Shown piece by piece: positions 26,793-64,000 of a stretch of 64,000 bases of DNA. Source of the DNA: Hirudinaria manillensis (lineage: Eukaryota > Annelida > Clitellata > Hirudinida > Hirudinidae). The notes under the pieces were generated by a model. The model did not search any database and was not told where the DNA came from. It saw nothing but the letters and a program-made list of their open reading frames with translations. The stretch is from the NCBI GenBank assembly GCA_034509925.1, contig CM067527.1, forward strand, positions 6,057,001 to 6,121,000, read 5' to 3'. A program made the position numbers and the translations under genes. Position 1 is the first letter of the stretch; each line of letters begins with the position of its first letter.

Positions 26793-26827
<35 letters not shown>

Positions 26828-28098
26828 TTACTTTTTGATTCATAATTCAAACTCATATTTAAAATTCAGATAATATGTCAGAGTCTATGCATGCTAGATA
26901 ATATTTATTAAAATTTATTAAACGATTTCTCGCAGAATCGAATTATTTGCAAGAATTCCGGGTAAAAGTAGGGGGGGCTGAGAACCACGAAGGGGTTATT
27001 TGTGCAGAATACGTGAACCGCACCTTAATAAACTTCAGCACCAAAATATATCTCCGTTGCAAATCACCAATCTTTGGGAACACAATAATGATCGAAAGGT
27101 TACCAACGTCGAAGTTTAGAAAGGACAAACTGGCCATTGCCGAGATTGAATTTTATGCCGCCAGAGATTTATCTCTTAATAATAAAGTCGAGATGAAGCT
27201 TAAATCATGTTAGTAAAGAATGAATTTAACTCTGAAAACAATTCTTGTAAATATTAAAAGTTTAATTTGAGTTTTCAAATGCAGGGAATGTCGTGGCTCT
27301 TGCAGAGGCTAAGGCTGGAAGTTTGGCAAAATATGCATACTCGAATCTCATGTTCTCTTGCAGTTTTTGTGGAGTTTACACAGTTTTCAATGGCTTCCGG
27401 ACAATTGTTGTGCTAAGTAAAGAAATAACGATAGTCGGCATCCAACTAAACCTCGTAAAAGACTTCGGTAATAACATAATTTTTAAAATACATAATCGAG
27501 GTTAAAATTAAACAATCAAAAATATGCATTGTACATTTCGTTTGAGTAGATTTATTAACCAGAACATGGAAAGGAATAATAAGCACGACGTGCAGATTAA
27601 TAATGCATTTGTTTGCTTACGTGTTGTAGAATATTAGGCAATAACAAAGATAAATTAAATAGGTAACAATTTTAATAACAATATGCAGATGCAATGGCAT
27701 ATGATTACATCATTTCATTTCATTATGTTCAAATTTATACTGGATTAATGCACAAAAGCAACCCTAATCGAATTTATTAAATTAAACATCCTCCTGTGAT
27801 AATTTAATAAATGACGTGATAATTCAATAAATTCCGTTCATTTTCAGACTCCGTAAATTTGCGAAATTTTCGCGTGCTGATAAACGTTTCTGGAAAGAAA
27901 TATGAATTCTGCAACGATTTCAAGAAAGGCAGTTTTAAAATTATCAGAAACGCTATAACTCTCGCCTGTATTCAACCATTGAAGGGCAGAAGGATTGAAA
28001 CGAAAGTCTACCAAAGGCAAACTAGGGTCAAACAGAGGGTCATTTCCAATATCACCGTTTACTTTTTGCCATCGAAGAAGTCAGAACAAAGAAGTTAG
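21759..28098 (+). CDS. Six-FTP-domain secreted or anchored protein, 16 exons
   Basis: Exons: 21759-21852 (ATG, hydrophobic FVLLCFVGFFVI), 21970-22020 (spacer), 22101-22262 A1, 22401-22628 B1, 22976-23194 A2, 23415-23681 B2, 24039-24089 (spacer), 24378-24593 A3, 24950-25213 B3, 25322-25549 A4, 25743-26009 B4, 26230-26280 (spacer), 26490-26702 A5, 26936-27208 B5, 27285-27467 A6, 27848-28098 B6. This totals about 1,005 residues. Every junction is phase 1 and all three spacers are exactly 51 nt, each ending in T that makes Trp with the following GG. A2-A5 show clear FTP features (LAVDDDPNTHSVACANC, FAVDGNLDTCSISCLSC, WWKVDLG); B exons end in SIAEINVF-type blocks. A1 and A6 are shortened and degenerate. 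The N-terminus could be a signal peptide or a type II anchor. The last exon may instead splice at 28093 into the next gene. Confidence 0.75.
26790..26827. repeat. (TC)n(AC)n compound microsatellite
   Basis: TC dinucleotides followed directly by AC dinucleotides inside the A5-B5 intron of the six-domain gene. Confidence 0.95.
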
Positions 28099-28491
28099 AG
28101 TCTATTTCGAAATCAGTTTTAAATTTGATTTACCAGATACGTATGTTAATTATTAATATTGCAATATATATATTTGTTTATTAACAATAAATTTTAACAC
28201 TACATCAAATAATACATTATGCAAGCAGTGTTTAATTAATAAGACATGTAGTATTTAAATAATGTTATTAATGAATGTATTAATAATAACAGCAAGTTAT
28301 TATATTATAGTAGCTCTAAACTCATATATAATAATCCGTTGAAGAAAAACAATTCTGATTTGAAGCAGTTCTCTCAAGTATCATTTCCCAGAACGTTTTC
28401 AACGTTGTCCCAATTTATACTTGAATTTATTTTATAATTATTCTATGCCAGTTCTTCTATCGTTTAACGTTCTTAATGGACATGCTTTCAG
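28099..28491. other. Intron or intergenic gap between two FTP genes
   Basis: AT-rich with no signal-peptide exon that would start the downstream gene. A possible donor at 28094-28095 and the acceptor at 28490-28491 are in matching phase, so this may be an ordinary intron of about 400 nt. Confidence 0.45.
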
Positions 28492-29247
28492 AACTTGATA
28501 TGAAGACACTGGAGTCTAGACAGAGTGACGCACCCGAGTCGACCAAGAAGGCCTCCAATGCCATCGACGGCAATTATGAGACCTACGCAAAAGCAGGGAC
28601 TACCAAGGTTGTGACCGCTGCTTGGTGGAGAGTTGACATGAAGAAGAATTACTACGTGAAGGGAGTTTCCATCGCAAGTGCAATAGATCCACAAGGTAAA
28701 GTTGTTTTTCCTTTCCAGTGGCGTATTCTTTAATTCAATGAAATAACATAAAATAAAATAAAAGAATCAGCCTTCTCAAGAAATATAATCGTTTTATGCT
28801 TATAATAACGTATGAACAACTGTTTAGGGATTATCAACAGATAGGGAACTGTCGAAACTTCAGGACTTAAGCTTGAACTCAACTCATAATGTTTTGCATT
28901 TATTTTATTATTTACTTCGATTCGACTCAATAAAAACGAAAAATTGATTATTTTATGTAGCTATTGCAATTGATCCCGTTTAATTTAATATTTCATTGGG
29001 TTGTCGTTTTTGTTTTCTCCAGAGGCTTACAACCTTCAACATTTCGAAGTCGTGGTTTTAACCGAGGATGATAAAGAGATGATTTGCCTCACCTATTGTG
29101 GAGTCGTATTTGGACCTGGTGATGTCAAAGACATCATTTGCGGTAAAGTATTGAATGGACGTCACGTTATGATAAGAAAGTTGCATCACGGAACCCTTAG
29201 GGACGAACTGTCGTTAGCCGAGGTGCAGATTTACATTGAGGATGAAG
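28492..29247 (+). CDS. Giant gene FTP domain 1 (exons A, B)
   Basis: Exons 28492-28695 and 29023-29247. Half A has NAIDGNYETYAKAG and AAWWRVDMKKNYYVKGV; half B has YNLQHFEVVVL, two Cys and LSLAEVQIYI. It lacks the CxxTCxxC cysteines of the later domains, so it is nearest to the single-domain genes. An unspliced ATG at 28476 could be an alternative start but gives no signal peptide. Confidence 0.75.
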
Positions 29248-32200
29248 GTAACTGAAAATCAACGATTGAAATTTGTAACGTAGTTATGTTTAATTACCAA
29301 ATATCAAATTAATAATTTTAATAATTATAAATTGAAATAGATAAAGTGAACCTACGTTTCCGTTAGTAAAAAATTGAATTTTCATGTACTGTTCGTTATA
29401 GTAATAATAACAACATATAATAACAAATTATAATAATAATATCATCAACAATAAAATATAATTAATCAGCAAATGTTGCCATAAATCCATAAAGCCTTCT
29501 CGAAAAGGCGGAGTTTAATAGCTTGAAATTATCTATGATAAAAATAAAGTATTAATAATAATATTAATAATAATACTAACATAGACAAATATTGGTAATT
29601 AATTTGACAAAAATTACATTTTTAATTTAAAAGAACTGACGCATTAGCTCAAGCTTTTTTATGAGATTTTTTAACATTTTATGATGATTTAACATTAAAT
29701 TTGGAACAGGCAGAGGTATATTTGGCGGTAAGTACAAAAACCAATTTAAATACCATCATTTAAGTATTAATAATATATCATTAATATAATGTAACATATT
29801 ATTAATAGTGCATTATGATAATATTATTATATTATAATATTGTTATGTCAGTTTTTACTAGTAGCTACCATTAATTTAATAAATACTTTAATAAAGTGAT
29901 AGTAGCTGTATGATCAATAAGCCTTATCACTAGTTTCAATAATGGTTACTGACAAGATTTTACTAGGCAATGTTTAGATTTCCTAAGAAATGATTAAATG
30001 TTTTATATCATGTCATTAACGATTCTATTACAAATTAAACTTGAATTTGACTTTCCAATTAACGTATAATCATAAAATAGGCCATACACGTGTGGCAGAC
30101 ATACACCTTTCTTGCAATCTTTAGGTTTTCTCTTTTTTTGAAAATAAACAAATAATTCGATAAAATGATCTTAGGACAACAAAAACTTAGCAAAAATGAA
30201 ACTCTAAATGAACGTGAGTATCGTCTCCGTTTTGCACGTCTTGAAGCTATAAAAATTGAGCGGATCTAATAATTTTTCATGATTATGTTTTAAACAGCCT
30301 GGAAACTAGATCCAGACATAGGGCGTAAGTTTTTTTTTTGTTTTGCGTGAATAGCGGGGGAGTAGTTTTCTGTGATTGAGTTCGCTTCAATAAAGACGCA
30401 TCACATCTCATCAAGTTTCATTATTGACGTAATAATTAAAATCAAATTCACTTAAACCTTAACAAGTCAATTCATTCAATCATATCCAAAAGGTTGGTTC
30501 CTTGAATCTCATGGCAAAAAGAGTGAGTTATGCTATGAGTGACTACATTACATAGAAGTTTATTATGATATATAAATATTTTAATATTATTAATTAATAT
30601 TATTATTATTATTAATAAATTCTATATTATTATACATAACCTTATATGATATATAAAGTTTGCATAAAAATGTTATATAAAACATTTTAATAGTAATAAT
30701 ATTATTAAATTCTATGGTGTTATATATAGTATTATAGTAACCAATATTTAATAACTGTACTATTATCGCAAACAATAATGATACTATTAACATTAATAAC
30801 AAGAAAGAAAGAAGGTCAAAATGGGCTAACATATATATCAAGTGATAAAAGGTGATCGGTTGTGGAATGTGGAACTCTGTGGAATTTCACGGATGAATTT
30901 CTGAGGACACTATAGTAACTTTAGTGGTTGAACAGTTGAGAGTAAATAGTGATAATAATAATAACAATAATATTTAAAATTATAACGGAGGTTAGTAAAA
31001 AATATTACAAACATACCACCTACACTGTCCAGTACTTCTCAAACAAGTTCGTTATTACTACGTGGCACATACCGTGGTGGCTCTGGACGGTCTTCCTGAA
31101 ACCTGCTCCAAAACGTGTCGCGATTGTCATGTCTCTGACTACCGCATAACTGGATATGGATGGTGGCAACACCAGCTTCAAAAAAGAACGACCATATCGA
31201 GCGTTGAAATACTTGCTTGTGACGACAGTGAGTACAACAGATTAATTTTAATGAAAATCATTTAAATTAAAGCTGTAATCAATTAATAAAAATATCAATA
31301 TTTAATGAAACAATAATAATAATAATAGTAAATCTATTAAATATTTGTTTCAATAGCTTTTAATGATTTGAAGGAATGATATCGCACTTACATGGAATGC
31401 TAATGCACTTATTATTCCCAACCATTAGAAATTTCCAGATATATATGTTTAAAATATAATTTTTAAAAACCAACCAAAAATATGATTTACGAATCTTAAA
31501 TTACGTCTGAATCTAACTTGATAGCAATGAATAACATTAAACAAAAATAAACACCTTCATCAAGGTATCGAATGCCTGCGCGACATAGTCGTGGGAGTAA
31601 CTGACAAGGAGAATGCAAGCCTGAACGATCTGAGAGTATGCGCATTCAACAAGAGATGCTTCAGGTCAATGAAGCATAGCATCGAAAGCCAGATGCCCTT
31701 GTGGCTAAAGCTGCAATGTAAGTCTCCTGTAACTGGCAACTATTTGGTCGTAGGCAGAACAAGGACTCCATCCCGTGCGTTATCCATTGCTGAAATAAAA
31801 GCCACAGACAGGGAAAACAAATACGTCAGCTTAACCACATTAGGTAAAGAAAGATGTTCGTCTAGGAATGATTTCATGCGAATAAAAAACGATTTGTAAT
31901 TTAATTAAGATATAATTCTACTTAATTTAATTCTACTGATTTTATTTTCCTTATTTAATCTCTTTCTAGATATCTAATTATCCAAACTGAAGCCTCTATT
32001 CCATATTAATCCATAATCCATATCAATACCGTATTACATGTATCTGCCTATTAACCAATCTGGTGCCCTCCTTACACTGTTATTGTAATTTATAATATAC
32101 ATATATATGGTATGTTTGGTCATATCATTAATTTCATCAAACTATTAAACATATGCAGATGAGATAAAAAACACAATGAATGAGCAAGGTTAGTTTTAAA

Positions 32201-35200
32201 CATATTTCAATATTTAAATTTTTAAATATCTATTATATTTTAACAAAGGGGAGTCTAAATTCGAGTTAGCCTCTCCCGAGTTAGAAACATCATTTTCCAA
32301 CAAATGATTTTATTGTTATACAAAATGGTAGGGACGAATTTTTATATTTATTAATATAAACAATGCTATGGAATTACTAAATCACATTTTTTTTTATAAA
32401 GTACCAGACTTCAATTCAGAGGAGAGTTAGTGTGGGTTCCTGTTAATTATTTAGGGATTTATTAAAAATATAACAACTAAACAATTGTGTTTATTACAAA
32501 TCGCAAATGATTTATTTTAAGTTTCTATTGATTTTCGTGTCCTATGTGCAAATTTCTGAAGTTATTTATTACCTTTCTCCAATTTCATTGATTTAGTGAA
32601 GAATCTTTAAATATTTAATCATTTAAGTATTACGCATACAAATTAAGGCTCCCTGATTATTTTATCGTTTCGCATTATCATCCGTGGTGGTATAGACGAT
32701 CAATGTGGACATTGTGACCTCATATGATGTTATGTCTGTAGGTAAATTATGAGTATGATGCCATGCATTACATATATTAACTAACCATCACCTTAAACTT
32801 TCATTGTGTTAAACGTACATTTCTCATATGATGCACATACATGTGAATGTAATATCTAATAAAATACCTTACAATTACTTATATTAAGTTGTCAACATAT
32901 TATAAAAATATTGTGTAGTCTTCGAATACCACAAAGAATGGTCACTAAAAGGGCTTGCCGGTACAACACGTCCAGAAGGTGAACTATGTTACACGTTATT
33001 AATGGGAGTTTTAACGACTTTTAAACGACATTTAAACTTTGCATAATTTACCCGTAACGATATTAATATTAATTAATTAATAGTTGCATGCTTAATTAAT
33101 TAATCAGTGCAATGATATATAGATCAAAAATAGTACAAATAAAAAAAGAAATAGTAATAATAATAATAATAATAACAGATGCATCTGCATATTTCAGATC
33201 ATATTAACTTTTAGCAGCTTACGTCATTTGATTGAAATAAATTTTAATCAAGATGCCAAATTAAGCTTCTAATGTTTATGAAAAATATTGCGAAGGAATA
33301 CTTCTTAAAACTTTACTTAATTTATAATAGATTGCTTTAATCAGATGTTTTAAAATTACATTTATAATTTAAATTTATGTGAAGAGATTACGAAATATTC
33401 TAAATTTACAAAATTCCATATTAAAAATTCACAACAACTTCTAATATCTAAAATATTTTTAATCCAAATAGTAAAATCAGGTGGTGAAGACGAAATGTTT
33501 AAACCAAGACCAAATGGACCGCATAGACGTAAGTTACTTATTGCAAGTATTTGACGTAATTATTATCAGGAAGAAAAAATACGATGTGGTGTTTAGGCTA
33601 TTGATTCGATTATATAATCAATATAATTCATTATTATAACCATTGCCAGAATATCCAGAGAACAGGCTCTTTGCATCCGAACCAAGGCCGCGTGAGTTGC
33701 GAAAATTATTAACAATTATTATTATACTTTTTAACTTTAAGTACTTTAATGACATCGTTTTGAAACAGCATGGAATGTTGATGACAAAGGACGTGCCTCC
33801 AATTGATGTTTAATTGAAGTGTTAAAATATTTAAATTAAGAATACGTCGAAATTTATATGTATGAAACCGTCATTAAAAAAAGATATTTATTTCTAAGGC
33901 TGGCAGAGACCAGAGACCGAAGTACCGACTGGGCCAGGTAGGATTAATAAATTATTTCAATTTCACAAGAAAATCTACGAGACCACACATTTTAATAACA
34001 ACACGATCGCCAATTTTGAACATTACACAATATAATTCATTATTATAACCAGTGCCACAATATCCAGAGCACAGGCTCTTTGCATCCGAACCAAGGCCGC
34101 GTGAGTTGCAAAAATTATTAATAATTATTATTATACTTGTTAACTTTAAGTACTTTAATGACATCGTTTTGAAACAGCATGGAAAGTTGATGACAAAGGA
34201 CGTGAGTGCCTCCTATTGATGTTTTATAGAAGTGTTAAAATATTTAAATTAAGAATGCGTCGAAATTTATATGTATGAAACCGTCATTAATAAAGTTATT
34301 TATTTCTAAGGCTGGCACATGATCTACCAAAATAAAACTTGTGAGTATTGCATAGTTATTTTTAAGTTCTAGCTTATACATCGGATATCTATGAAATTAA
34401 TTTTTCATTCGACTTTGTAATTAATCATTTCCGAATTTGGTGAAAAAAATGCAGTTTGTATTATTATTATCATATAAATGATGAAAATTAATGCATTTAA
34501 CATTTTTAACGAACCATTTGTGAATTTACAGATCACTTGATACCTCCAAAAAATCTCAAGAAGATTCAGTTCTACGTCTTGCCCGCTGCGGTAGCAGCTT
34601 TGGACGGTTACAGCGAAACTTGTTCTAAAACTTGCCTCCATTGTGACGATCCTGCATCTAAATTTGGATCGTGGTCGTTCAAATTTCCAAATGTTCAGAC
34701 AGTCTCAGAAGTTCATATACTTGCCTGTAAAGATGGTTTGTATTAACAAGAATTTGGCTACTAGAAATAAAACAAGACCGATGCTTGCCTAGTAATTAAG
34801 AATTGTCTTTGTAAAATTATGTACGAAAAATAAAATTTTAACAATTTGAGGAAGCGAATGTCTCGGAGAAATCGTTGTTGGAGTCAGCGATAGCGAAGAT
34901 CCAGATCACACCGCCCTCTCCGTATGCAGTAAAAGCTACAAATGCGTTCTCGAACAAGGAGTTCCAAGATGGTTGAAATTGCGATGTATCGCTTCAGTCA
35001 GAGGAAAATACTTATTCATCGTTAGAAACAAGAAACCATCACAAGCAATCTCAATTTCCGAAGTCAGAGTTCTCGACATTAACGGTGGCTTGGTCGACAT
35101 GAAACCAGGAGGTATCGCGTTTATTTTTTGATTCAAGATAAAATAACGTTTTGTCGTTTAATTAATCGTATTAAATCCAGAGACCGAAGTACCGACTGAG

Positions 35201-38200
35201 CCAGGTAAGATTAAGAAATTATTTCAATTTTACAAGAAAATGTCCGAGACATATTCAAATTAAGAATACGTCGTAATTTATGTGCATGGAACCGTCATTA
35301 ATAAAAGATATTTATTATCTAAGGCTGGCAGAGACCAGAGACCGAAGTACCGACTGAGCCAGGTAAGATTAATAAATTATTTCAATTTCACAAGAAAATG
35401 TACGAGACATATTCAAATTAAGAATACGTCGAAATTTATATGTATGGAACCGTCATTAATAAAAGATTTATTTCTAAGGCTGGCAGAGACCAGACACCAA
35501 AGTACCGACTGAGCCAGGTAAGATTAATAATTTATTTCAGTTTCACAAGAAAATTTACTATACCTTTCATTTGATGACATTTTATTAACGTTGTGATCGC
35601 CAAATTGATTATACAATATAATTCGCAATAACCATTGCCAGAATTATAACAATCTAAAATTTGATTTTGTTACTGATTATTTTTCTTTTTCATTCCTTAG
35701 TTTATGTTCATGAGGAGCCTCATAATGATCCAGAATTGGGTTATTTCTACATTTATCTTCTTTCAATTGCTGTTATTATTTCTTATTTATTATAACTTCT
35801 ATTTTTTAAATCATTTTAGCTAATGTTTGTTTACGTTAATTAATCCTAATGATGATATCACTTTCCAACAGAAGCTGACTATGAAAAATATTGTTAGCAT
35901 TTTAAATTATTACTTTTTCTTTTGCAAGTTAAATAGAATATTTTTACATGTTTATGTCAATTTATGCAAAGGTGATATTCTGATAATATTTATAATAATA
36001 ATGATAACATCAATAACAACAAAGCGAAATATGATTTTATTCTTATTTTCTCTAAAGTCCAAATTACAAATAAAATTACAATACAGATAAGACTGATCTG
36101 TTCAGACCTAACCCAGCCACCGGACTTCGTCCCCGTAAGGATACAGATGTCTTTTAAAATTAAAAATCTTTATTACTTATTATTTGACTGTGTCATTTAT
36201 TTATTTTTTAATTTGTTTATTTTTAAAACAGCATGGCAAGTCAATGAAAATGGAGGTGATTAGCATCTATTGATTTTTAGTTTATGTTAAAGACAAGATT
36301 TGTTCTATTTGTGAAAAGATAAATTTATCGAAAACATTTGACTAAATATTCAAAAACATTGTTAAGAGTTTAAATGTCTTTGTTATTTAAGAGCTTTTAT
36401 TATTCACTTTTACTTTTAAGACTGGTACCTCGTCACGGAAGATAGAAAATGTGAGTATTGAAAGACCGCGGATAATGTGACTGGAATAATTTAAAGCCTA
36501 AGAATTATTTTATTTTTAAAAGTTGAAAATTAACATAAGTCTTGGATAGATATGATACTTTACGATTCAAATTAAATTTTGTTAAATTTTTTACAATTTC
36601 ACCATTTCGATAGACTTACTAAAACGTCCGAAAAATACCAACAAAATTGGAAACTATCACATTCCAATTATGGAAGTTGCTTTGGACGGTTACCCGAACA
36701 CATGCACTAGAACGTGTATTGGATGCACTGAGGACATTGGGTCTGGGTTTGGCTGGTGGCACTACGAATTCCAAAGTGCCACAACTGTCTTTGAGGTTCA
36801 GATACTACCCTGCTCTGACGGTTAATACTTTTAATGATTTATTTATTAAAATTTAGTTAATCGGTACTCTAGATGGCATAGTTATAGCAATGTAACTGAC
36901 GTGATAAAATTATTGAAATCGATAACAGAAAGGGTAACAAAATTAATAACTTTTAGTTACTTTACTTAACAATAATTTTTAAAAAATCCAACATTTCTCC
37001 AACGCTTTAAAGGAATCGAATGTCTACGAGACGTTGTTGTCGGGGTCAGCGACCGGAAAACGTCTGACATTAACGATCTGAAATTCTGCAACGAAAATGA
37101 AAAATGCCAGCACGGAAAATGGACGCATTTCCGTTGCCATCATCCTGTCACTGGAAAGCATTTGATTATCATCAGGAAGAAGTCACCTACTAATGGGATC
37201 AATGAGCTTTCTATTGCTGAAATCAAAGTTAAAAATCAACAGGACGTTTATGTGGACATGACACTGAAAACTCCAACAGGTATTAGTAGCTTTTAAATTA
37301 GTCAATCTTAAATATATTATGTAATGTTGTTTATATTATTTAACCATGTTTGTAATTCCCATGTTATTATGGTTGATGTTATTCTTTTTCTAATAACAAT
37401 GATAGTAATAATAATAATAATTTGTATTTGAATGCTATTTGCATTTTCACAAGGACCCTCGGTTGCTAGTGACAGTGTCGGTGAGTTCAAAAATATAAAC
37501 TAATGTTTTTATTTTCCAATAAATTAAACAATTTGTCGAATATTTTGTGGCATGTGATTTAACCTTAACTAAAATTTTTATTTTTTAATTAATATTTATT
37601 CCAATGACACGTCATTTTATCATAATCAATAAGTGTTTTAAACCTTATACACGTTTGTATTTATTTTTGTCCAATGCAATTGTATTTTGTATTTACAATC
37701 ATTTCATGATAGTACCAATAATTTACCTAGCAAATAAATTTCATTTATACCTACATTGAGTAGATTTCAAGTAAATATATATTTATTCAGATATTTCACA
37801 TTTAATTGCTATTCATCCAATTTAAATTAAGTTACACAAAATAAACAAAATTGATTAAGTATTTGGCCATTTTCGACTTTAATTCTAGATAAAATAACGA
37901 TTTGATGTTTAATTAATCGTATTAAATCCAGAGACCGAAGTACCCACTGAGCCAGGTAAGATTAATAAATTATTTCAATTTCACAAGAAAATGTACGAGA
38001 CCACACTTTTTAATAACAACACGATCGCCAATTTGAACATTACACAATATAATTCATTATTATAACCAGTGCCACAATATCCAGAGCACAGGATCTTTGC
38101 ATCCGAACCAAGGCCGCGTGAGTTGCAAAAATCATTAATAATTATTATTATACTTTTTAACTTTAAGTACTTTAATGACATCGTTTTAAAACAGCATGGA

Positions 38201-41200: not shown

Positions 41201-44200
41201 CTACTAATGGGATCAATGAGCTTTCTATTGCTGAAATCAAAGTTAAAAATCAACAGGACGTTTATGTGGACATGACACTGAAAACTCCAACAGGTATTAG
41301 TAGCTTTTAAATTAGTCAATCTTAAATATATTATGTAATGTTGTTTATATTATTTAACCATGTTTGTAATTCCCATGTTATTATGGTTGATGTTATTCTT
41401 TTTCTAATAACAATGATAGTAATAATAATGTTGGATCCCTGACATTAATTAATTAATTAAATAATTAATTAATTAATTAAATAAATAATTAATTAAGTTT
41501 AGTTAATATTCAGAATCTTTTATTTCGAAGTCGAATCTAGCGATTCGAGTCATTAGGCAGTTCCGATCAAGACAAGCAATCGACCAGATCTCCTAAACAT
41601 CTTTGCCACTAGTTTATTCCAATAAAGATATACTTACGTTAAATAATTCATCAGACCCCTAGGTTACAACATTGGTGTCAGGAGTGGGATTTAACGTCGT
41701 AAAGGGATATCGATTCACTAGAGGTAAAACAGCGAGTTTTAACGACAGAAATGGGACCTAAGATACTGGAAGATTTGCGCGTCCCCGATTTGAGACGAGA
41801 ACTAAGGAATCGAGGCCTGGATGCAACTGGCCTAAAAGCCGAACTACAAGGACGGCTCGAGGAATGGCTTTTGGAAAATAATCACGATCCGTCGGAGTAT
41901 GAATTTGGGGTTCAAAAAGATTGGGAAGCCATGATTTGCAGCATTGATACTTTGCGGTCAGATATGAAATGCGACAATAATGTTTTGCGGTCAGATATGA
42001 TTTGCGGCATAGATACTTTGCGATCAGATATGAAATGCGACATTAATGATTTGCGGTCGGATATGAAATCCGATATAGCCAACTTCCAGGTAGCCATGGA
42101 TGTTTTACGGGAGCAGGTAAAGACAGACGTAGCCAAATTCCAGACATCCATGGATGTTCTGCGGGAAGAGGTAAGAACTGATGCAGCCAAATTCCAGACA
42201 TCCATGGAAGAGGTAAAAACGGACGTAGCCAACCTCAGATCATCCAAGGAGATGGCCGACCTGAGAAAGGTTAAAGCAGAATTAGATGCACTAAAAGAAG
42301 AGCAGAGGAGGGAAATAGAGAAGTTTAAAAAATACAATGAATCGAAAACAGAGACATATGGAAGAGAGAAAACGACAAGACCACCATTATTCGACGGACA
42401 AGGGCCATGGGCAGTGTTCAGACATCAGTTTGAAACTGCCGCCGAACGTAACAAGTGGACCGAAGAGGAAAAAGCAACAGAGCTGATAATGGTACTGCGA
42501 GGAAGGGCAGCCGAGCTTTTGCAAACAATGCTCCACTGTAAAGCCTATTCAGAAATAGCAGAAGCAATGGAAAGAAGATTTGGGAATGGCCACATGCTGG
42601 AAGTACATAAAAACGAATTGAAAAATCGTACGCAAAAACAGGGCGAAACACTCCAAGAATTAGAGGCTGATGTCAGAAGGCTCGCATACCTAGCCCATCC
42701 AGGACAGTCAACAGATTTCATCGAAAACATTGTAACTGACGCCTTCATTGATGGGATAAGGGATGTGGAAACAAAAATGGCATTAAAAATACATGGAAAG
42801 AAGGCCAGCCACGAAGCATTGGCGTTTGCAATCTCAATGGAGGCGGCAAGAGCTTCAATCCAAAACAGCTTGAATGTAAGGAAAATTGAAGCACAGGAAG
42901 ACAAAGACAAGGAGAAAGACAATGATAAAAACAGTGAGATAATTAGAAGAATGGCCGAACAAATCAACAACCTCAGCAAACCTCAAGGAAAACCAAGGTT
43001 CCAAGAAGTAGATAGAAGACCAAGGTGCTTCAGATGTAACAAGCCTGGCCATTTAGCCCGAGATTGCAGAACGACATTCCCCCCAAAACAACAGTACTGG
43101 GGAAGATCGTACAATCAGGAAAACTAGAAGCTGCCGGTTTTGGGGGGCGAAGATCGGTTCAGCAAACTCGAAATGCCCCACTCATCTTTCACGTTACAGC
43201 ACTAGGGAAAGAATCATCTCTGGGAGTTAAAGGGAAAATAGGAGGGAATGAATACAATATGGTGATCGACACAGGGGCATCTGCATCCATTATCCAACCA
43301 AAGTTAGCAGAAAGCAGTAAAATAACCATAGCCGAAAATTACAAGCTAAAAACAGCCACAGGGGAATTAGTGCCAGTCCAGGGAACCACAGCTATTACAG
43401 TAGATTTAGGAGGCAGGTCATTCAAACAAGAATTCATGATAGCCAATATCACAGATGAATGTATACTGGGATTGGATTTCATGCGACGTTACGGAATTTC
43501 CATTGACATGAAAGGCGGCATCCTTCAACAAGGAACGATGGAGATTCCTCTACACTACGGAGGTACAGAAGTCAAAGACACGTTTGTAAAAGTATTACAA
43601 AACGAGACCATTCCGGCACAGTCGGAAAGCTTAATTTGGGGCGGGCTAGAAGGCGACTATACAAAATTTGGTATAGGAGCAGTCGAAGATCAATCGGGCA
43701 TTGGCCAAGGACTACTAATAGGACGAGCACTAGTCAGGCTAAACACCGGCAGAGTTCCACTGAGGGTAATGAATCTATCTGACCAGAAACAACAGATCAA
43801 AGCAGGAACACCTATCGCACTTTGCAGGAACCTAGAACGCATATTAACATTAGATGGAAGTGGAAATAAGCATATCAAAAGGGATACCATATCTAAACCA
43901 TTGATGGACAATCTCCTGAAAGATTTAAACAAAACCCTACAAAAAGAAGATTATCAACAAGCGGAAAAACTGCTTAGCGAATTTCAGGATATAATGGCTG
44001 AACAAGACAGCCCTTTGGGTAGAACTAACCTCGTGCAACATCAAATAAATACGGCCGGTGCTAAACCCATTCGACAAAACCCCCGTCCACTTCCTTTAGC
44101 TACAAGAGCAAACGCCAAGGAAATGATAAAAGAAATGCAAGACCAAGGGGTTATTGAACCGTCAAATAGCCCCTGGAGCTCACCAGTGGTACTCGTTAAG

Positions 44201-47200
44201 AAGAAAGATGGATCACTTCGTTTTTGTGTCGACTATAGAAAGCTGAACGAAATGACACTTAAGGACAGCTACCCCTTACCTAGAATCGATGATACTTTAG
44301 ACACTCTCTCGGGATCAAAAATTTTTTCCACGTTAGATCTCAAAAGTGGTTACTGGCAAGTGGAGTTACATCCTGACGATAGAGAAAAAACGGCCTTCTC
44401 GACAGGTGAAGGATTATGGCAATTCACTGTCATGCCGTTCGGGCTATGCAATGCCCCCGCGACGTTTGAAAGATTAATGGAACACATACTAAGGGGACTC
44501 AATTGGAAAGTATGCCTAGTATATTTGGATGACATAATTGTTGTCGGAAAAACATTTGGAGAACATTTAGACAACCTCCGAGAAGTATTTAGTAGGATTA
44601 GAGAGGCAGGCATGAAACTGAGTCCAAAGAAATGCTCACTCTTTAAAAAAGAAGTCAAATACCTTGGCCATATCGTGTCTTCTGAAGGTGTTAGTACAGA
44701 TCCAGATAAAGTCGAGGTAGTAAAAAATTGGCCTGTACCCAAAAATATCCAAGAACTTCAAAGCTTCTTAGGACTTTGTACCTATTACAGACGATTTATT
44801 GCCAACTTTTCAAACATCGCAAAAAGCCTTAATGAGCTTACTGTAAAAGGCAAGCCATTTATCTGGAACGACAGCTGTGAGAAAGCATTTGATAATCTGA
44901 AAGCAGCTATGATAACGGCACCGATCCTGGCATATCCTATTCCCGGATTACCTTTTATCCTCGATACAGATGCCAGTAACTGTGGAATCGGGTCAGTTCT
45001 TTCCCAGCAGGTTGGAAACGAAGAAAAAGTTCTAGCATTTTATAGCCGTTCACTGTCCAAAGCGGAAAGAAACTATTGCGTAACCAGGAGAGAATTATTA
45101 GCAGCAGTAGAATCCATGAAACATTTCCATAAATATCTTTTGGGCCAGCCGTTTTTGCTAAGAACGGATCACGCCTCTCTGAGGTGGCTGTTAAACTTTA
45201 AAAACCCAGAAGGTCAGATGGCGAGGTGGATTGAAAAACTACAGGGTTTTCAGTTCAATATTGAACACAGGAGAGGTCAAATACACAACAACGCTGATGC
45301 GCTATCACGACGTCCTTGTCAACTTAACTGCAGACACTGCAACAACGCAGAGAAAAAACAGGAGACCGAAGAATGTCGACAAATTCGTATCACGGCTCCC
45401 GAACCCTGGACAGAAAGCGGGTTACGAGATCTACAATTAAGAGACGAAGCACTTGCACCCATACTACAGTGGATGGAGGCCGGGGTGAAACCAGGTTGGC
45501 AACAGATAGCGGAGCACGGAGAAGTTACTAAGTCCTATTGGGCACAGTGGGATTCCTTGAGAATTAGTAATGGACTCCTACATAGGAAGTGGGAAACAGA
45601 GGATGGCACCGACTATCACCTTCAAATAGTACTTCCGAGATCTTGTGTCTCTGAGGTGTTACAAGAATTCCATAACGGAACCTCAGGTGGACACCTGGGA
45701 GTGAATAAAACCATCAGGAAGGTGAGGGAGAGGTTTTACTGGTTGCACTACAAACAAGACGTTGAGGAGTGGTGTAGAAATTGCACTAATTGCGCAACCA
45801 GTAAAGGACCTCAAAAGAAGACTAAAGGTCTAATGCAACCCTATAATGTGGGAGTACCTTTTGAAAGAATAGCTTTGGATATTGCAGGACCATTCCCTGC
45901 ATCAAAGAAAGGAAATCGGTACATATTAGTGATCAGCGATTACTTCACCAAATGGACCGAAGCGTTTGCACTGCCAAATCAGGAGGCGGAAAATGTAGCT
46001 GATGTTCTCGTAAATAATTGGATTAGTCGATTCGGGGTGCCATTAGAGTTACATTCGGACCAAGGAAGGAATTTCGAGTCGAAAATATTTCAAGAGCTAT
46101 GCGAAAACCTTGGAATCCATAAGACAAGAACCACTGCATTGCATCCGCAATCGGACGGTATGGTCGAGAGATTTAACAGGACCATGGAACAGTATTTGTC
46201 AAAAATGGTAAGTGAACAGCAAGATGACTGGGACAGATACCTACCACTTTTCCTTATGGCCTACCGGACAGCCGTGCATAAAACGACAGGAATCAGTCCA
46301 TCGAAAATGACATTCGGGAGGGAGATTCGTCTTCCTGCCGATATGATGTTCGGAAGAGCAGAGGAACCTAAGTCGGCATGTGACTACGTTTCAAGCCTAA
46401 GAAATACATTGGCCGATACACACCAGGTTGCCCGGAAAAATATTAGTGTTAATAGCGATCAAGCCAAAGCGAGATACGATAGGCAAGCCAATGATATAAG
46501 CTTTAAAGAAAATGAACTAGTCTGGCTATACAACCCCCAACGAAAAAAAGGGAAGTCGCCAAAGTTACAAAAAGATTGGGAAGGACCATACCGAATCATA
46601 AAGAAAATAAACGACGTAGTATACCGCATACAGAAATCAGCAAGGACTAGAATGAAAGTGGTCCACAGCAATCGATTAGCAAAATATCACGGCGAGACAG
46701 AACAGCCTGTTCGGGACGAACAGATTTAAGGGGAGGGCAATGTTGGATCCCTGACATTAATTAATTAATTAAATAATTAATTAATTAATTAAATAAATAA
46801 TTAATTAAGTTTAGTTAATATTCAGAATCTTTTATTTCGAAGTCGAATCTAGCGATTCGAGTCATTAGGCAGTTCCGATCAAGACAAGCAATCGACCAGA
46901 TCTCCTAAACATCTTTGCCACTAGTTTATTCCAATAAAGATATACTTACGTTAAATAATTCATCAGACCCCTAGGTTACAACAATAATAATAATTTGTAT
47001 TTGAATGCTATTTGCATTTTCACAAGGACCCTCGGTTGCTAGTGACAGTGTCGGTGAGTTCAAAAATATAAACTAATGTTTTTATTTTCCTATAAATTAA
47101 ACAATTTGTCGAATATTTTGTGGCATGTGATTTAACCTTAACTAAAATTTTTATTTTTTAATTAATATTTATTCCAATGACACGTCATTTTATCATAATC

Positions 47201-50200: not shown

Positions 50201-53200
50201 CGTAAGGATACAGATGTCTTTTAAAATTAAAAATCTTTATTACTTATTATTTGACTGTGTCATTTATTTATTTTTTAATTTGTTTATTTTTAAAACAGCA
50301 TGGCAAGTCAATGAAAATGGAGGTGATTAGCATCTATTGATTTTTAGTTTATGTTAAAGACAAGATTTGTTCTATTTGTGAAAAGATAAATTTATCGAAA
50401 ACATTTGACTAAATATTCAAAAACATTGTTAAGAGTTTAAATGTCTTTGTTATTTAAGAGCTTTTATTATTCACTTTTACTTTTAAGACTGGTACCTCGT
50501 CACGGAAGATAGAAAATGTGAGTATTGAAAGACCGCGGATAATGTGACTGGAATAATTTAAAGCCTAAGAATTATTTTATTTTTAAAAGTTGAAAATTAA
50601 CATAAGTCTTGGATAGATATGATACTTTACGATTCAAATTAAATTTTGTTAAATTTTTTACAATTTCACCATTTCGATAGACTTACTAAAACGTCCGAAA
50701 AATACCAACAAAATTGGAAACTATCACATTCCAATTATGGAAGTTGCTTTGGACGGTTACCCGAACACATGCACTAGAACGTGTATTGGATGCACTGAGG
50801 ACATTGGGTCTGGGTTTGGCTGGTGGCACTACGAATTCCAAAGTGCCACAACTGTCTTTGAGGTTCAGATACTACCCTGCTCTGACGGTTAATACTTTTA
50901 ATGATTTATTTATTAAAATTTAGTTAATCGGTACTCTAGATGGCATAGTTATAGCAATGTAACTGACGTGATAAAATTATTGAAATCGATAACAGAAAGG
51001 GTAACAAAATTAATAACTTTTAGTTACTTTACTTAACAATAATTTTTAAAAAATCCAACATTTCTCCAACGCTTTAAAGGAATCGAATGTCTACGAGACG
51101 TTGTTGTCGGGGTCAGCGACCGGAAAACGTCTGACATTAACGATCTGAAATTCTGCAACGAAAATGAAAAATGCCAGCACGGAAAATGGACGCATTTCCG
51201 TTGCCATCATCCTGTCACTGGAAAGCATTTGATTATCATCAGGAAGAAGTCACCTACTAATGGGATCAATGAGCTTTCTATTGCTGAAATCAAAGTTAAA
51301 AATCAACAGGACGTTTATGTGGACATGACACTGAAAACTCCAACAGGTATTAGTAGCTTTTAAATTAGTCAATCTTAAATATATTATGTAATGTTGTTTA
51401 TATTATTTAACCATGTTTGTAATTCCCATGTTATTATGGTTGTTGTTATTCTTTTTCTAATAACAATGATAGTAATAATAATAATAATAATTTGTATTTG
51501 AATGCTATTTGCATTTTCACAAGGACCCTCGGTTGCTAGTGGCAGTGTCGGTGAGTTCAAAAATATAAACTAATGTTTTTATTTTCCTATAAATTAAACA
51601 ATTTGTCGAATATTTTGTGGCATGTGATTTAACCTTAACTAAAATTTTTATTTTTTAATTAATATTTATTCCAATGACACGTCATTTTATCATAATCAAT
51701 AAGTGTTTTAAACCTTATACACGTTTGTATTTATTTTTGTCCAATGTATGTATTTCGTATTTACAATCATTTCATGATTAATACTGTTGGATCCCTGGAT
51801 CCAGATAATGAAGAATAATTAAAATTATATTGCTGATTAATTAATTTAGTAATTAATTAAATTGATTGGCAATATGATATGATAATTAATTAATGGCTAA
51901 TATTCAGAGTCTTTGGTTGTGAATCTCTTCAAATAGAGTTATCTCGAAAAGCACAGCGAGAGTAAGAGAAACAGCAGATTCCAAGATTTAGACAATTGAT
52001 CATTGTACATCTTCTAAGCCATCTGAACACTTTCAATAAACCTGACCTTCTATAATTAGTTTGAGGACCCCGGGTTATTACATTGGTGTCAGGATTGGGA
52101 TTTAAAGTTAAAGGGTATCCAAGAGTAACTAAGGTAGAGGCTTGTTTAGTTGAAAAGTGAAGGATGACGAAGTACTTGGATGAATTGTACGTGCCTCGAT
52201 TGAGACAAGAATTGTGATATCGTGGCCTGGATTGGAAAGGCACGAAAGCTGAGATACGGGAGCGACTTGGGGCATGGCTGACAGAGATTGGCCATGACCC
52301 GGATGAATACGAATTCGAATCTGAATTTACTGAGTTTCTGAGAAAGTGCACAGAGGAGTGCAGAAGGAGTATTAGGGGCAATTTGGAAGACACTGCGGTT
52401 CTATGTCAGGATGTCTCGTTGGTTTCGGGTGACAAGTCTACCGAGAAAAGTTCTGATGGTTCTTTTAAGGAGAGGAGAGTGGTGCTTCCATGTTGCGAGG
52501 AACTAGGAGAGGATCTCTGCAAAAATGGTCCCAACGAAGAACAAATCATATCCGTTGTTCCAGGTACAGTTTCTGGCAGCATTGGGATGGAGTCTTTAGA
52601 AGACACATCTGAACACAGTGCGTGCGTGTCTCCAGAAAGAATACATCGTAATTTATATGCATGGAACCGTCATTAATAAAATATTTATTTCTAAGGCTGG
52701 CAGAGACCAGAGACCGAAGTACCGACTGAGCCAGGTAATATTAATAAATTATTTCAATTTCACAAGACAATGTACGAGACCACACATTTTAATAAAAACA
52801 CGATCGCCAATTTGAACATTACACAATATAATTCATTATTATAACCATTGCCAGAATATCTAGAGAACAGGCTCTTTGCATCCGAACCAAGGCCGCGTGA
52901 GTTTCAAAAATTATTAATAATTATTATTATACTTTTTAACTTTAAGTACTTTAATGACATCGTTTTGAAACAGCATGGAAAGTTGATGACAAAGGACGTG
53001 CCTCCAATTGATGTTTAATTGAAGTTTTAAAATATTTAAATTAAGAATACGTCGAAATTTATATGTATGAAACCGCCATTAAAAAAAGATAATTATTTCT
53101 AAGGCTGGCAGAGACCAGAGACAGAAGTACCGACTGAGCCAGGTAATATTAATAAATTATTTCAATTTCACAAGACAATGTACGAGACCACACATTTTAA

Positions 53201-56200: not shown

Positions 56201-59200
56201 CCAGAGACCGAAGTACCGACTGAGCCAGGTAAGATTAATAAATTATTTCAATTTCACAAGAAAATGTACGAGACATATTCAAATTAAGAATACGTCGTAA
56301 TTTATGTGCATGGAACCGTCATTAATAAAAGATATTTATTTCTAAGGCTGGCAGAGACCAGAGACAGAAGTACCGACTGAGCCAGGTAAGATTAATAATT
56401 TATTTCAGTTTCACAAGAAAATGTAAGAGACATATTCAAATTAAGAATACGTCGAAATTTATATGTATGGAACCGTCATTAATAAAAGATTTATTTCTAA
56501 GGCTGGCAGAGACCAGACACCAAAGTACCGACTGAGCCAGGTAAGATTAATAATTTATTTCAGTTTCACAAGAAAATTTACTATACCTTTCATTTGATGA
56601 CATTTTATTAACGTTGTGATCGCCAAATTGATCATTATACAATATAATTCGCAATAACCATTGCCAGAATTATAACAATCTAAAATTTGATTTTGTTACT
56701 GATTATTTTTCTTTTTCATTCGTTAGTTTATGTTCATGAGGAGCCTCATAATGATCCAGAATTGGGTTATTTCTACATTTATCTTCTTTCAATTGCTGTT
56801 ATTATTTCTTATTTATTATAACTTCTATTTTTTTAAATCATTTTAGCTAATGTTTGTTTACGTTAATTAATCCTAATGATGATATCACTTTCCAACAGAC
56901 GCTGACTATGAAAAATATTGTTAGCATTTTAAATTATTACTTTTTCTTTTGCAAGTTAAATAGAATATTTTTACATGTTTATGTCAATTTATGCAAAGGT
57001 GATATTCTGATAATATTTATAATAATAATGATAACATCAATAACAACAAAGCGAAATATGATTTTATTCTTATTTTCTCTAAAGTCCAAATTACAAATAA
57101 AATTACAATACAGATAAGACTGATCTGTTCAGACCTAACCCAGCCACCGGACTTCGTCCCCGTAAGGATACAGATGTCTTTTAAAATTAAAAATCTTTAT
57201 TACTTATTATTTGACTGTGTCATTTATTTATTTTTTAATTTGTTTATTTTTAAAACAGCATGGCAAGTCAATGAAAATGGAGGTGATTAGCATCTATTGA
57301 TTTTTAGTTTATGTTAAAGACAAGATTTGTTCTATTTGTGAAAAGATAAATTTATCGAAAACATTTGACTAAATATTCAAAAACATTGTTAAGAGTTTAA
57401 ATGTCTTTGTTATTTAAGAGCTTTTATTATTCACTTTTACTTTTAAGACTGGTACCTCGTCACGGAAGATAGAAAATGTGAGTATTGAAAGACCGCGGAT
57501 AATGTGACTGGAATAATTTAAAGCCTAAGAATTATTTTATTTTTAAAAGTTGAAAATTAACATAAGTCTTGGATAGATATGATACTTTACGATTCAAATT
57601 AAATTTTGTTAAATTTTTTACAATTTCACCATTTCGATAGACTTACTAAAACGTCCGAAAAATACCAACAAAATTGGAAACTATCACATTCCAATTATGG
57701 AAGTTGCTTTGGACGGTTACCCGAACACATGCACTAGAACGTGTATTGGATGCACTGAGGACATTGGGTCTGGGTTTGGCTGGTGGCACTACGAATTCCA
57801 AAGTGCCACAACTGTCTTTGAGGTTCAGATACTACCCTGCTCTGACGGTTAATACTTTTAATGATTTATTTATTAAAATTTAGTTAATCGGTACTCTAGA
57901 TGGCATAGTTATAGCAATGTAACTGACGTGATAAAATTATTGAAATCGATAACAGAAAGGGTAACAAAATTAATAACTTTTAGTTACTTTACTTAACAAT
58001 AATTTTTAAAAAATCCAACATTTCTCCAACGCTTTAAAGGAATCGAATGTCTACGAGACGTTGTTGTCGGGGTCAGCGACCGGAAAACGTCTGACATTAA
58101 CGATCTGAAATTCTGCAACGAAAATGAAAAATGCCAGCACGGAAAATGGACGCATTTCCGTTGCCATCATCCTGTCACTGGAAAGCATTTGATTATCATC
58201 AGGAAGAAGTCACCTACTAATGGGATCAATGAGCTTTCTATTGCTGAAATCAAAGTTAAAAATCAACAGGACGTTTATGTGGACATGACACTGAAAACTC
58301 CAACAGGTATTAGTAGCTTTTAAATTAGTCAATCTTAAATATATTATGTAATGTTGTTTATATTATTTAACCATGTTTGTAATTCCCATGTTATTATGGT
58401 TGTTGTTATTCTTTTTCTAATAACAATGATAGTAATAATAATAATAATAATTTGTATTTGAATGCTATTTGCATTTTCACAAGGACCCTCGGTTGCTAGT
58501 GGCAGTGTCGGTGAGTTCAAAAATATAAACTAATGTTTTTATTTTCCTATAAATTAAACAATTTGTCGAATATTTTGTGGCATGTGATTTAACCTTAACT
58601 AAAATTTTTATTTTTTAATTAATATTTATTCCAATGACACGTCATTTTATCATAATCAATAAGTGTTTTAAACCTTATACACGTTTGTATTTATTTTTGT
58701 CCAATGTATGTATTTCGTATTTACAATCATTTCATGATTAATACTGTTGGATCCCTGGATCCAGATAATGAAGAATAATTAAAATTATATTGCTGATTAA
58801 TTAATTTAGTAATTAATTAAATTGATTGGCAATATGATATGATAATTAATTAATGGCTAATATTCAGAGTCTTTGGTTGTGAATCTCTTCAAATAGAGTT
58901 ATCTCGAAAAGCACAGCGAGAGTAAGAGAAACAGCAGATTCCAAGATTTAGACAATTGATCATTGTACATCTTCTAAGCCATCTGAACACTTTCAATAAA
59001 CCTGACCTTCTATAATTAGTTTGAGGACCCCGGGTTATTACATTGGTGTCAGGATTGGGATTTAAAGTTAAAGGGTATCCAAGAGTAACTAAGGTAGAGG
59101 CTTGTTTAGTTGAAAAGTGAAGGATGACGAAGTACTTGGATGAATTGTACGTGCCTCGATTGAGACAAGAATTGTGATATCGTGGCCTGGATTGGAAAGG

Positions 59201-62200
59201 CACGAAAGCTGAGATACGGGAGCGACTTGGGGCATGGCTGACAGAGATTGTCCATGACCCGGATGAATACGAATTCGAATCTGAATTTACTGAGTTTCTG
59301 AGAAAGTGCACAGAGGAGTGCAGAAGGAGTATTAGGGGCAATTTGGAAGACACTGCGGTTCTATGTCAGGATGTCTCGTTGGTTTCGGGTGACAAGTCTA
59401 CCGAGAAATGTTCTGATGGTTCTTTTAAGGAGAGGAGAGTGGTGCTTCCATGTTGCGAGGAACTAGGAGAGGATCTCTGCAAAAATGGTCCCAACGTAGA
59501 ACAAATCATATCCGTTGTTCCAGGTACAGTTTCTGGCAGCATTGGGATGGAGTCTTTAGAAGACACATCTGAACACAGTGCGTGCGTGTCTCTAGAAAGA
59601 ATACATCGTAATTTATATGCATGGAACCGTCATTAATAAAATATTTATTTCTAAGGCTGGCAGAGACCAGAGACCGAAGTACCGACTGAGCCAGGTAATA
59701 TTAATAAATTATTTCAATTTCACAAGACAATGTACGAGACCACACATTTTAATAAAAACACGATCGCCAATTTGAACATTACACAATATAATTCATTATT
59801 ATAACCATTGCCAGAATATCTAGAGAACAGGCTCTTTGCATCCGAACCAAGGCCGCGTGAGTTTCAAAAATTATTAATAATTATTATTATACTTTTTAAC
59901 TTTAAGTACTTTAATGACATCGTTTTGAAACAGCATGGAAAGTTGATGACAAAGGACGTGAGTGCTTCCTATTGATGTTTAATTGAAGTGTTAAAATAGT
60001 TAAATTAAGAATACGTCGAAATTTATATGTATAAAACCGTCATTAATGAAGTTATTTATTTCTAAGGCTGGCACATGATCTACCAAAAGAAAACTTGTGA
60101 GTATTGCATAGTTATTTTTATATTCTTGCTTATACATCGAATATCTATGAAATTAATTTTTCATTCGACTTTGTAATTAATCATTTCCGAATTTGGTAAA
60201 CATATGCAGTTTGTATTATTATTTTATAAATGATGAAAATTAATGCATTTAACATTTTTAACGATCCATTTGTGAATTTACAGATCACTTGATACGTCCA
60301 AAAAATCTCAAGAAGATTCAGTTCTACGTCTTGCCCGCTGCGGTAGCAGCTTTGGACGGTTACATCGAAACTTGTTCTAAAACTTGCCTCCATTGTGACG
60401 ATCCCGCATCTAAATTTGGATCGTGGTCTTTCAAATTTCCAAATGTTCAGACAGTCTCAGAAGTTCACATACTAGCCTGTAAAGATGGTTTGTATTAAGA
60501 AGAAGAATTTGGCTACTACAAATAAAACAAGACCGATTCTTGTCTAGTAATTAGGAATTGCCTGTGTAAATTATGTACGAAAAATAAAATTTTAACAATT
60601 TAAGGAAGCGAATGTCTCGGAGATATCGTTGTTGGAGTCAGCGATAGCGAAGATCCAGATCACACCGCCCTTTCCGTATGCAGTAAAAGCCACAAATGCG
60701 TTATCAAACGAGGAGTTCCAAGATGGTTGAAATTGCGATGCACCGCTCCTGTCACAGGAAAATACTTACTCATCGTTAGAAACAAGAAACCGTCGCGAGC
60801 AATCTCAATTTCCGAAGTCAGAGTTCTCGATGTCAGCGGTGGTTTGGTCGACATGAAGCCAGGAGGTATCGCGTTTATTTTTTGATTCAAGATAAAATAA
60901 CGTTTTGATGTTTAATTAATCGTATTAAATCCAGAGACCGAAGTACCGACTGAGCCAGGTAAGATTAAGAAATTATTTCAATTTTACAAGAAAATGTACG
61001 AGACATATTCAAATTAAGAATACGTCGTAATTTATATGCATGGAACCGTCATTAATAAAAGATATTTATTTCTAAGGCTGGCAGAGACCAGAGACCGAAG
61101 TACCGACTGAGCCAGGTAATATTAATAAATTATTTCAATTTCACAAGACAATGTACGAGACCACACATTTTAATAACAACACGATCGCCAATTTGAACAT
61201 TACACAATATAATTCATTATTATAACCAGTGCCAGAATATCCAGAGAACAGGCTCTTTGCATCCGAACCAAGCCCGCGTGAGTCCCGAAAATTATTAATA
61301 ATTTTTGTTATACTTTTTAACTTTAAGTACTTTAATGACATCGTTTTGAAACAGCATGGAAAGTTGATGACAAAGGACGTGCCTCCAATTGATGTTTAAT
61401 TGAAGTTTTAAAATATTTAAATTAAGAATACGTCGAAATTTATATGTATGAAACCGCCATTAAAAAAAGATAATTATTTCTAAGGCTGGCAGAGACCAGA
61501 GACAGAAGTACCGACTGAGCCAGGTAATATTAATAAATTATTTCAATTTCACAAGACAATGTACGAGACCACACATTTTAATAAAAACACGATCGCCAAT
61601 TTGAACATTACACAATATAATTCATTATTATAACCATTGCCAGAATATCTAGAAAACAGGCTCTTTGCATCCGAACCAAGGCTGCGTGAGTTTCAAAAAT
61701 TATTAATAATTATTATTATTATACTTTTTAATTTTAAGTACTTTAATGACATCGTTTTGAAACAGCATGGAAAGTTGATGACAAAGGACGTGAGTGCTTC
61801 CTATTGATGTTTAATTGAAGTGTTAAAATAGTTAAATTAAGAATACGTCGAAATTTATATGTATAAAACCGTCATTAATGAAGTTATTTATTTCTAAGGC
61901 TGGCACATGATCTACCAAAAGAAAACTTGTGAGTATTGCATAGTTATTTTTATATTCTTGCTTATACATCGAATATCTATGAAATTAATTTTTCATTCGA
62001 CTTTGTAATTAATCATTTCCGAATTTGGTAAACATATGCAGTTTGTATTATTATTTTATAAATGATGAAAATTAATGCATTTAACATTTTTAACGATCCA
62101 TTTGTGAATTTACAGATCACTTGATACGTCCAAAAAATCTCAAGAAGATTCAGTTCTACGTCTTGCCCGCTGCGGTAGCAGCTTTGGACGGTTACATCGA

Positions 62201-64000: not shown

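Follow-up and report, generated by a model that had tools for sequence, protein, structure and literature searches.

Gene Model and Overall Architecture

The stretch of DNA examined here, referred to as the window, comprises 64,000 nucleotides of the genome of the leech Hirudinaria manillensis (GCA_034509925.1, contig CM067527.1, hereafter C2, positions 6,057,001–6,121,000). For gene modelling, 36 kb more of downstream DNA were added, and the numbering of the window is continued into it. The forward strand harbors, with a probability of roughly three in four, one giant leech gene, which is predicted to encode a secreted or signal-anchored protein consisting of 25 FTP domains of two phase-1 exons each and of linkers encoded by microexons. 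The gene spans positions 21,759 to 84,330, so that its 3′ end lies 20 kb beyond the window, and the signal peptide exon of the next gene follows at 85,237. A preliminary description of this DNA had let the gene begin at 28,492, a boundary that had to be moved to 21,759.

The full model contains 186 exons and encodes 5,448 amino acids, stop-free from the ATG to the stop codon. Apart from the first and last exon, it is made up of 50 exons for the 25 FTP domains, 131 microexons of up to 60 nt and three linker exons of 61–90 nt, separated by introns with a median length of 118 nt. Between 28,492 and 64,000 the domain exons come in pairs, one member measuring about 200 nt and the other 230–280 nt, and these pairs alternate with short exons. 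All 50 domain exons are flanked by AG and GT, have a length divisible by three and lack stops, the exon ends of the copies having been projected from a reference unit. Between 28,492 and 64,000, 87 microexons were modelled, 80 of them with a summed splice score of at least 12. The microexon array proposed in the preliminary description is therefore recovered, but not its count of about 94, and most members are copies of one another. The exons are likewise short as proposed, although their lengths run from 9 to 51 nt across the whole model and not from 18 to 60 nt. The first coding exon agrees with the earlier view of a secreted product, but it may also be read as a signal anchor; the N-terminus of a nearby paralog is hydrophobic as well. 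The product also proved linker-rich as described, since proline, glutamate and threonine account for 36.5% of the microexon-coded residues (1 Cys in 1,433) versus 15.7% of the domain residues (171 Cys in 3,874).

Table 1. Coordinates of the modelled features, in window numbering (values above 64,000 lie in the added downstream DNA).
Feature	Position	Strand	Remarks
First coding exon with ATG, signal peptide or signal anchor (MDRELFSRGLGRGQFVLLCFVGFFVITYQEL) and phase-1 donor	21759–21852	+	read by eye; missed by automatic scan
51-nt linker exon	21970–22020	+	same size at 24039–24089 and 26230–26280
Seven N-terminal FTP domains, 14 exons	22101–29247	+	A/B pairs start at 22101, 22976, 24378, 25322, 26490, 27285, 28492
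First microexon string	29710–30522	+	29710–29727, 30175–30213, 30298–30324 (x), 30493–30522 (y); 30081–30089 uncertain
FTP domain (unit 31)	31033–31843	+	A 31033–31227, B 31565–31843
Second microexon string	32159–34340	+	32159, 32408, 32952, 33481, 33650, 33769, 33899, 34053, 34178, 34311; less certain: 32408, 32952, 33769
Tandemly duplicated array of FTP-plus-microexon units	33619–64000	+	extends to ~75 kb in downstream DNA
Array-type FTP '34'	34532–35111	+	A 34532–34735, B 34851–35111
Third microexon string	35181–36450	+	35181, 35324, 35479, 36087 (w), 36232 (x), 36421 (y)
Array-type FTP '36'	36614–37279	+	A 36614–36820, B 37013–37279
Further copies of '34' (starts)	38550, 48602, 53732, 55557, 60284, 62116, 63945	+	63945 copy runs past window end
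Further copies of '36' within window (starts)	40628, 50681, 57641	+	
Ty3/Gypsy-type LTR (long terminal repeat) retrotransposon in intron	41427–46983	+	5.6 kb; 245-bp LTRs 100% identical
Gag-like open reading frame (ORF) fragment, by eye	52218–52676	+	amplified with array; second copy 59178–59636, third ~71.5–71.8 kb
Last array-type FTP	82,959–84,037	+	
Terminal exon with stop	84,206–84,330	+	fits model

Two candidate features were discarded in the course of modelling. The end of the '34' B exon was initially placed at 35,084 and was replaced by 35,111, which matches the other B exons; the shorter form was used in the single-domain Pfam searches, the 807-residue protein search, the copy alignment, the calculation of pN/pS (the ratio of the nonsynonymous to the synonymous proportion of changes) and the Protein Data Bank (PDB) profile. 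An 84-nt exon at 52,564–52,647, together with a copy at 59,524, falls inside the Gag-like ORFs and was left out of the model.

Reading Phase of the Exons

The symmetric phase-1 exons postulated in the preliminary description were recovered: in an exon chain from 29,023 to 63,757, built from splice and coding signals with every phase permitted, 104 out of 104 exons are in phase 1 at both ends, a figure that includes the two later excluded (52,564 and 59,524). From 28.4 kb to the window end a chain gave 92 microexons, four of which were false, resulting from an A exon split in four copies (75+33 nt). Of the remaining 88, all but 10 fall into ten peptide groups with 4–18 members each. Most unit types are represented once in the region 28,400–37,930. 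Here phase 1-1 was observed in 15 of 21 microexons on the forward strand, whereas none of the 3 chained on the reverse strand had it; 40 dinucleotide shuffles averaged 0.47 such microexons, with no shuffle giving more than 3. Between 46,984 and 64,000 the proportion reaches 54 of 54. The training behind these counts is partly circular. A frame-blind test of the unique region found five of seven strong short AG-GT pairs to be a multiple of three in length, with no pairs on the reverse strand.

Recurring x-y Microexon Pair and the Inverted Paralog

Situated directly in front of the array-type FTP domains are two microexons, x (PW....G) and y ([RD]W...). This tryptophan-bearing pair recurs at five diverged places, namely in units 31, 34 and 36, at 82 kb and in the paralog. 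The x+y peptides common to units 31, 34 and 36 are matched in score by 0 of 2000 shuffles in each case. For unit 31 against the paralog, 0 of 5000 shuffles reach the observed score, and for the 82-kb unit against units 31, 34, 36 and the paralog the numbers are 1, 2, 22 and 0 of 5000. Exon y alone is reached by 1 of 2000 shuffles in the paralog comparison. In the comparisons involving the paralog or the 82-kb unit, every exon peptide was given G as first base, which slightly favours a match at the first residue.

The paralog lies 122 kb away in inverted orientation, running on the minus strand from C2:6,277,028 to about 6,263,600. Behind a hydrophobic first exon, each of its first seven A exons finds its best match in the A exon of the same rank in the window gene (7/7). 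Two further FTP domains follow, both of the array type, and the large array is absent. Exons x and y measure 27 and 30 nt in both the paralog and unit 31. At the positions of the 51-nt linkers the paralog carries exons of 51, 51 and 54 nt, with a peptide similarity not above shuffles; for these linkers and for the z exon the position is the same and the length nearly so, but not the peptide. The plain reading of this arrangement would be a gene duplication, followed by amplification of units in one of the copies.

Tandem Array and Divergence of the Copies

Self-comparison displays tandem units from 33.6 kb on, with array matches longer than 1 kb being 94.5–99.1% identical and shorter ones down to about 75%. 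By sequence, the microexons of the array are products of tandem duplication. An alignment of seven '34' copies contains gaps in 0 of 564 exon columns versus 20 of 612 intron columns, 7 of the 20 being at alignment ends. Among four '36' copies, 1 of 603 exon columns and 10 of 1,322 intron columns are variable, and the gaps in '36' exons derive from one copy which is cut at the LTR element. Codon comparison demonstrates purifying selection on the FTP exons between the most diverged copies, with a pN/pS of 0.26–0.36 in the six '34' comparisons that involve V34 (the most diverged copy, common to all six). Where the '34' copies differ in exons w, x and y, the changes mainly alter an amino acid, with only about 20 synonymous sites available. 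The acceptor AG of exon w is changed to AT in four copies; here an AG 6 nt downstream preserves the frame.

The LTR retrotransposon is absent from the sister units at 51.5 and 58.4 kb, which represent the empty site. Among the best 120 of 7,930 matches, its nearest named relatives are from Cordylochernes and spiders; a search with the pol part found an unnamed ENA protein with 81% identity. The start of its Gag ORF contains a segment that we take, by eye, to be SAP-like.

Fold and Relatives of the FTP Domains

The assignment to the FTP/F5-8C class made in the preliminary description is borne out at the level of the profile. A profile of ten A+B domains, nine from the giant gene and one from the neighbouring gene at 13 kb, matches FBP32 (E 4.3e-16), the entry 1k12 ('LECTIN', E 1.9e-8), presumably the Anguilla agglutinin, and fucolectin-related proteins in the PDB. 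Single domains are less easily recognized: with Pfam, three of ten pass the cut-off, four match below it and three remain unmatched, the latter including two of the three array-type domains tested. A viral-contig search for a relative gave four pattern matches, none of which was confirmed.

In fold profile and in the tandem arrangement of domains, the gene resembles the F-type lectins MsaFBP32 and Anguilla agglutinin. PMC5712786 describes the MsaFBP32 domain as interrupted by introns, as in the leech gene, and gives the fucose motif as HX24RXDX4(R/K). In contrast to these lectins, the leech gene has 25 domains and microexon-coded linkers, and the motif was found in none of 11 domains inspected (ten of the giant gene, with one representative per array type, and one of the neighbour). 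A fucose-binding lectin was rejected on these grounds, and since none of the 11 domains carries the motif, an altered ligand or a structural role is likely. The cation motif, in which a pair of small hydrophobic residues is followed by D, G and one of N, D or S, was read in its strict form in 4 of 11 domains (AVDGD, AVDGN, AIDGD, AIDGN), and a relaxed pattern occurs in 9 of 11.

FTP-type matches at E≤0.01 number at least 108 across the genome, most of them on C10 and C11, which indicates a large family. Extensive clusters of such matches are found at C10:2.5–3.3 Mb and C11:1.7–2.7 Mb, several with in-frame stops inside the match.

Neighbouring Genes and Genomic Context

Upstream of the giant gene, an FTP gene with an A exon at 2161–2358 and a B exon at 10763–10999 encloses two R2-like LINE (long interspersed nuclear element) retrotransposons (2820–10506, minus strand). 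The two elements are 75% identical, and their PDB relatives include R2 retrotransposon protein entries. Rfam at gathering scores gave no match in the window, ribosomal RNA included. A small FTP gene on the plus strand (12831–14285) has its own signal exon (12831–12909) and one FTP domain (13295/14088), and is followed by a minus-strand FTP gene (15221–20369) with a signal exon at 20369–20306 and three FTP domains. The next gene downstream of the giant gene (about C2:6,142,237–6,147,100) likewise combines a signal exon with three FTP domains, and contains Thr-rich short exons (TDTTITLT, TTTLATSSAITTTLAPT and others) that correspond to a mucin-like linker in an exon style like that of the giant gene.

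Elsewhere in the genome, TTAGGG repeats occur near the start of C1 and at other places (at least 2,805 exact matches), while a search for the exact five-fold TTAGG pattern was negative. At least 63 antistasin and 13 destabilase matches were counted. One destabilase exon shares, by a count made by eye, 44 of 66 residues (about 67%) with PDB entry 8bbu ('Lysozyme'), which we take to be Hirudo medicinalis destabilase, and one runs on in the same frame into a long Ser/Thr/Glu repeat (L041:1501–2241). The telomere-type repeats and the antistasin and destabilase matches indicate a leech; an arthropod origin, to which the nearest named relatives of the LTR element had pointed, was rejected on their account.

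Strength of the One-Gene Model and Alternative Explanations

A number of observations weigh against the model of one giant gene. The splice model was trained on phase-1 exons picked by hand, and between domain exons the final model allowed no linker exon that was longer than 90 nt or in any phase other than 1-1. A control trained on domain exons only and lacking a coding term returned eight phase-1-1 but also seven phase-0-0 candidates, compared with about one candidate per phase class in 60 shuffles (phase 1-1 maximum 4). At its loosest threshold, the frame-blind test found a multiple of three in 6 of 14 pairs, and in the paralog gap mostly multiples of three on both strands. Two splice-only controls are hence weak or ambiguous. 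Several donors are poor (gtttgt, gtatcg, gtgcct), and the gene is modelled poorly, and with the least certainty, between 75 and 82 kb. Five units carry an ATG ahead of exon x from which an open frame with a hydrophobic stretch crosses the intron and enters that exon; this we judge to be chance, but an internal start may be used. Protein searches brought up no close relative: the 807-residue join of 28,492–37,279 had no match at E≤0.01 among 5.8 billion proteins, and a three-domain profile gave 10 matches at E≤1, including five named ones from four fish and one bacterium.

Splice counts alone would not settle the exon model, for which the comparison with diverged copies is the better evidence; here, too, some results are unfavourable. 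Exon x alone does not match the paralog significantly (156 of 2000 shuffles), and microexon w, the z exon and the 51-nt linkers lack demonstrable conservation. At the nucleotide level between units, x reaches z-scores of 2.1–6.3 and y merely 1.7–3.3, exon w lies between −2.0 and 0.9, and 9 of 12 introns are at or below 2.1 but the other 3 at 3.4–4.2. The contrast of exon over intron is accordingly real for x and modest for y. Variable columns are equally common in exons and introns of the '34' copies (7.3% versus 7.5%), and in 4 of the 15 FTP comparisons that do not involve V34, which have 0–5 synonymous changes each, pN exceeds pS. The joining of all exons in one mRNA is inferred.

Several of these points would also be expected if the locus were a cluster of separate small FTP genes mimicking one, with the microexons being chance AG-GT pairs in duplicated introns. 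The adjoining FTP genes of the window are small, each with a separate signal exon (12,831 and 20,369), the unbiased splice controls are weak, and the hydrophobic read-through upstream of exon x provides five units with an ATG. However, the other signal-like matches between 22 and 85 kb, in a scan covering phase-1 donors, are read-through, the one at 25,297 entering a domain exon and that at 82,330 exon y, the x+y peptides are kept in diverged units and in the paralog, and the latter has seven FTP domains in the same order behind one signal-like exon, which makes separate genes very unlikely. A related doubt concerns the integrity of the array, which might be real DNA in partial decay or, in part, an assembly duplication of heterozygous copies. 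Identities of 98–99% between some units, the weak donor gtgcct in some x copies and the Gag-like fragment amplified with the units would fit such an origin. It is rendered improbable by the differing layouts of the units, the lack of the LTR insertion in sister units and the '34' FTP exons, which are free of indels and under constraint relative to the most diverged copy (pN/pS as above); moreover, if the assembly is the one of PMC10671345, HiFi reads with an average of 18.73 kb exceed the unit length.

A different reading accepts the gene as real and regards the microexon strings as alternatively spliced cassettes from which a wide range of secreted variants would arise, an idea put forward for the micro-exon genes (MEGs) of schistosomes. 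Skipping would preserve the frame because the modelled exons are symmetric, the 39-nt exon GWQRPETEVPTEP has an internal acceptor whose use would yield ETEVPTEP, the peptide also encoded by a separate 24-nt exon, and the donor strength of exon x varies between copies (gtgagt versus gtgcct). On the other hand, phase symmetry is also predicted by duplication alone, and alternatively spliced cassettes appear doubtful. We favour a single gene in which the listed exons would be joined.

Comparison with Known Microexon Genes

In gene architecture, the closest system is the megacycle gene of aphids, a member of the bicycle family, which is one extremely large gene with more than 100 microexons, an N-terminal secretion signal and internal tandem duplications with shared intron positions (PMC9168663). 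The computational leech model displays the same set of features, with more than 100 same-phase microexons, a signal sequence and internal tandem duplication. However, the internal exons of bicycle and megacycle genes are in phase 2 and those of the leech in phase 1, and the portion of PMC9168663 consulted describes megacycle from aphids only, with about 2,000 amino acids (5,448 in the leech model) and no mention of FTP anchors.

Schistosome MEGs, which the preliminary description had put forward as precedent, share the exon logic but are not the nearest system. According to a review (PMC8293314), their exons are short and symmetric, so that any of them may be left out with the reading frame intact, and symmetric short exons are the sole feature common to both. 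Whereas MEGs are defined as mainly composed of exons of up to 36 bp and as a family restricted to schistosomes, only 74 of the 131 leech microexons are that short, microexons encode 1,433 of about 5,448 residues, and the gene sits in a leech genome.

The F5/8 type C proteins of the saliva of medicinal leeches belong to the same domain class as the giant gene (PMC7191736); in the main text of that paper, 'microexon' and 'micro-exon' occur 0 times. Literature searches pairing microexons with the FTP domain or fucolectin returned no paper, and no FTP microexon gene came up among the papers listed by wider searches. In the literature consulted, symmetric microexon arrays come from schistosomes and aphids; the array modelled here is a variant that is FTP-anchored, in phase 1 and from an annelid.

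Proposed Evolution and Function

Since each unit is frame-neutral, unequal exchange would be tolerated: with internal exons in phase 1 at both ends, unequal crossing-over could add or remove single microexons or whole FTP units in frame. In this way, sixteen FTP domains of two types (11 and 5 copies) and their linkers may have grown from a short ancestor resembling the nearby paralog, the FTP folds being held by selection and the linkers left to drift apart. Such a gene would give rise to an extracellular protein that is long, flexible and multivalent.

Most likely the protein acts outside the cell, with its domains arranged like beads on a string, as a multivalent binder or adhesin of, for example, saliva or mucus, and the canonical fucose site is presumably no longer used. 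This assignment is inferred from family resemblance. F5/8C proteins are among the novel salivary proteins of Hirudo, with roles yet to be established (PMC7191736); saliva is therefore a reasonable place to look first, not a result. More speculatively, the giant FTP strings of this leech might vary in length and linkers among individuals, and unequal exchange of phase-1 units, altering how many binding domains there are, together with regulated microexon inclusion, adjusting the linkers, might give rise to a fast-evolving multivalent anti-haemostatic or immune decoy, an idea we hold to be rather unlikely. If true, it would represent a third independent origin of secreted genes with microexon arrays, after schistosomes and aphids, and again in a feeder on living hosts.

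The annelid gene would join the logic of symmetric microexons to an ordinary, well-folded domain family. As the short paralog in the same genome displays the state without the large array, the origin of such genes, by symmetric phase and subsequent unequal crossing-over, would become testable. The gene also suggests that leeches possess a large secreted protein that has so far escaped characterisation.
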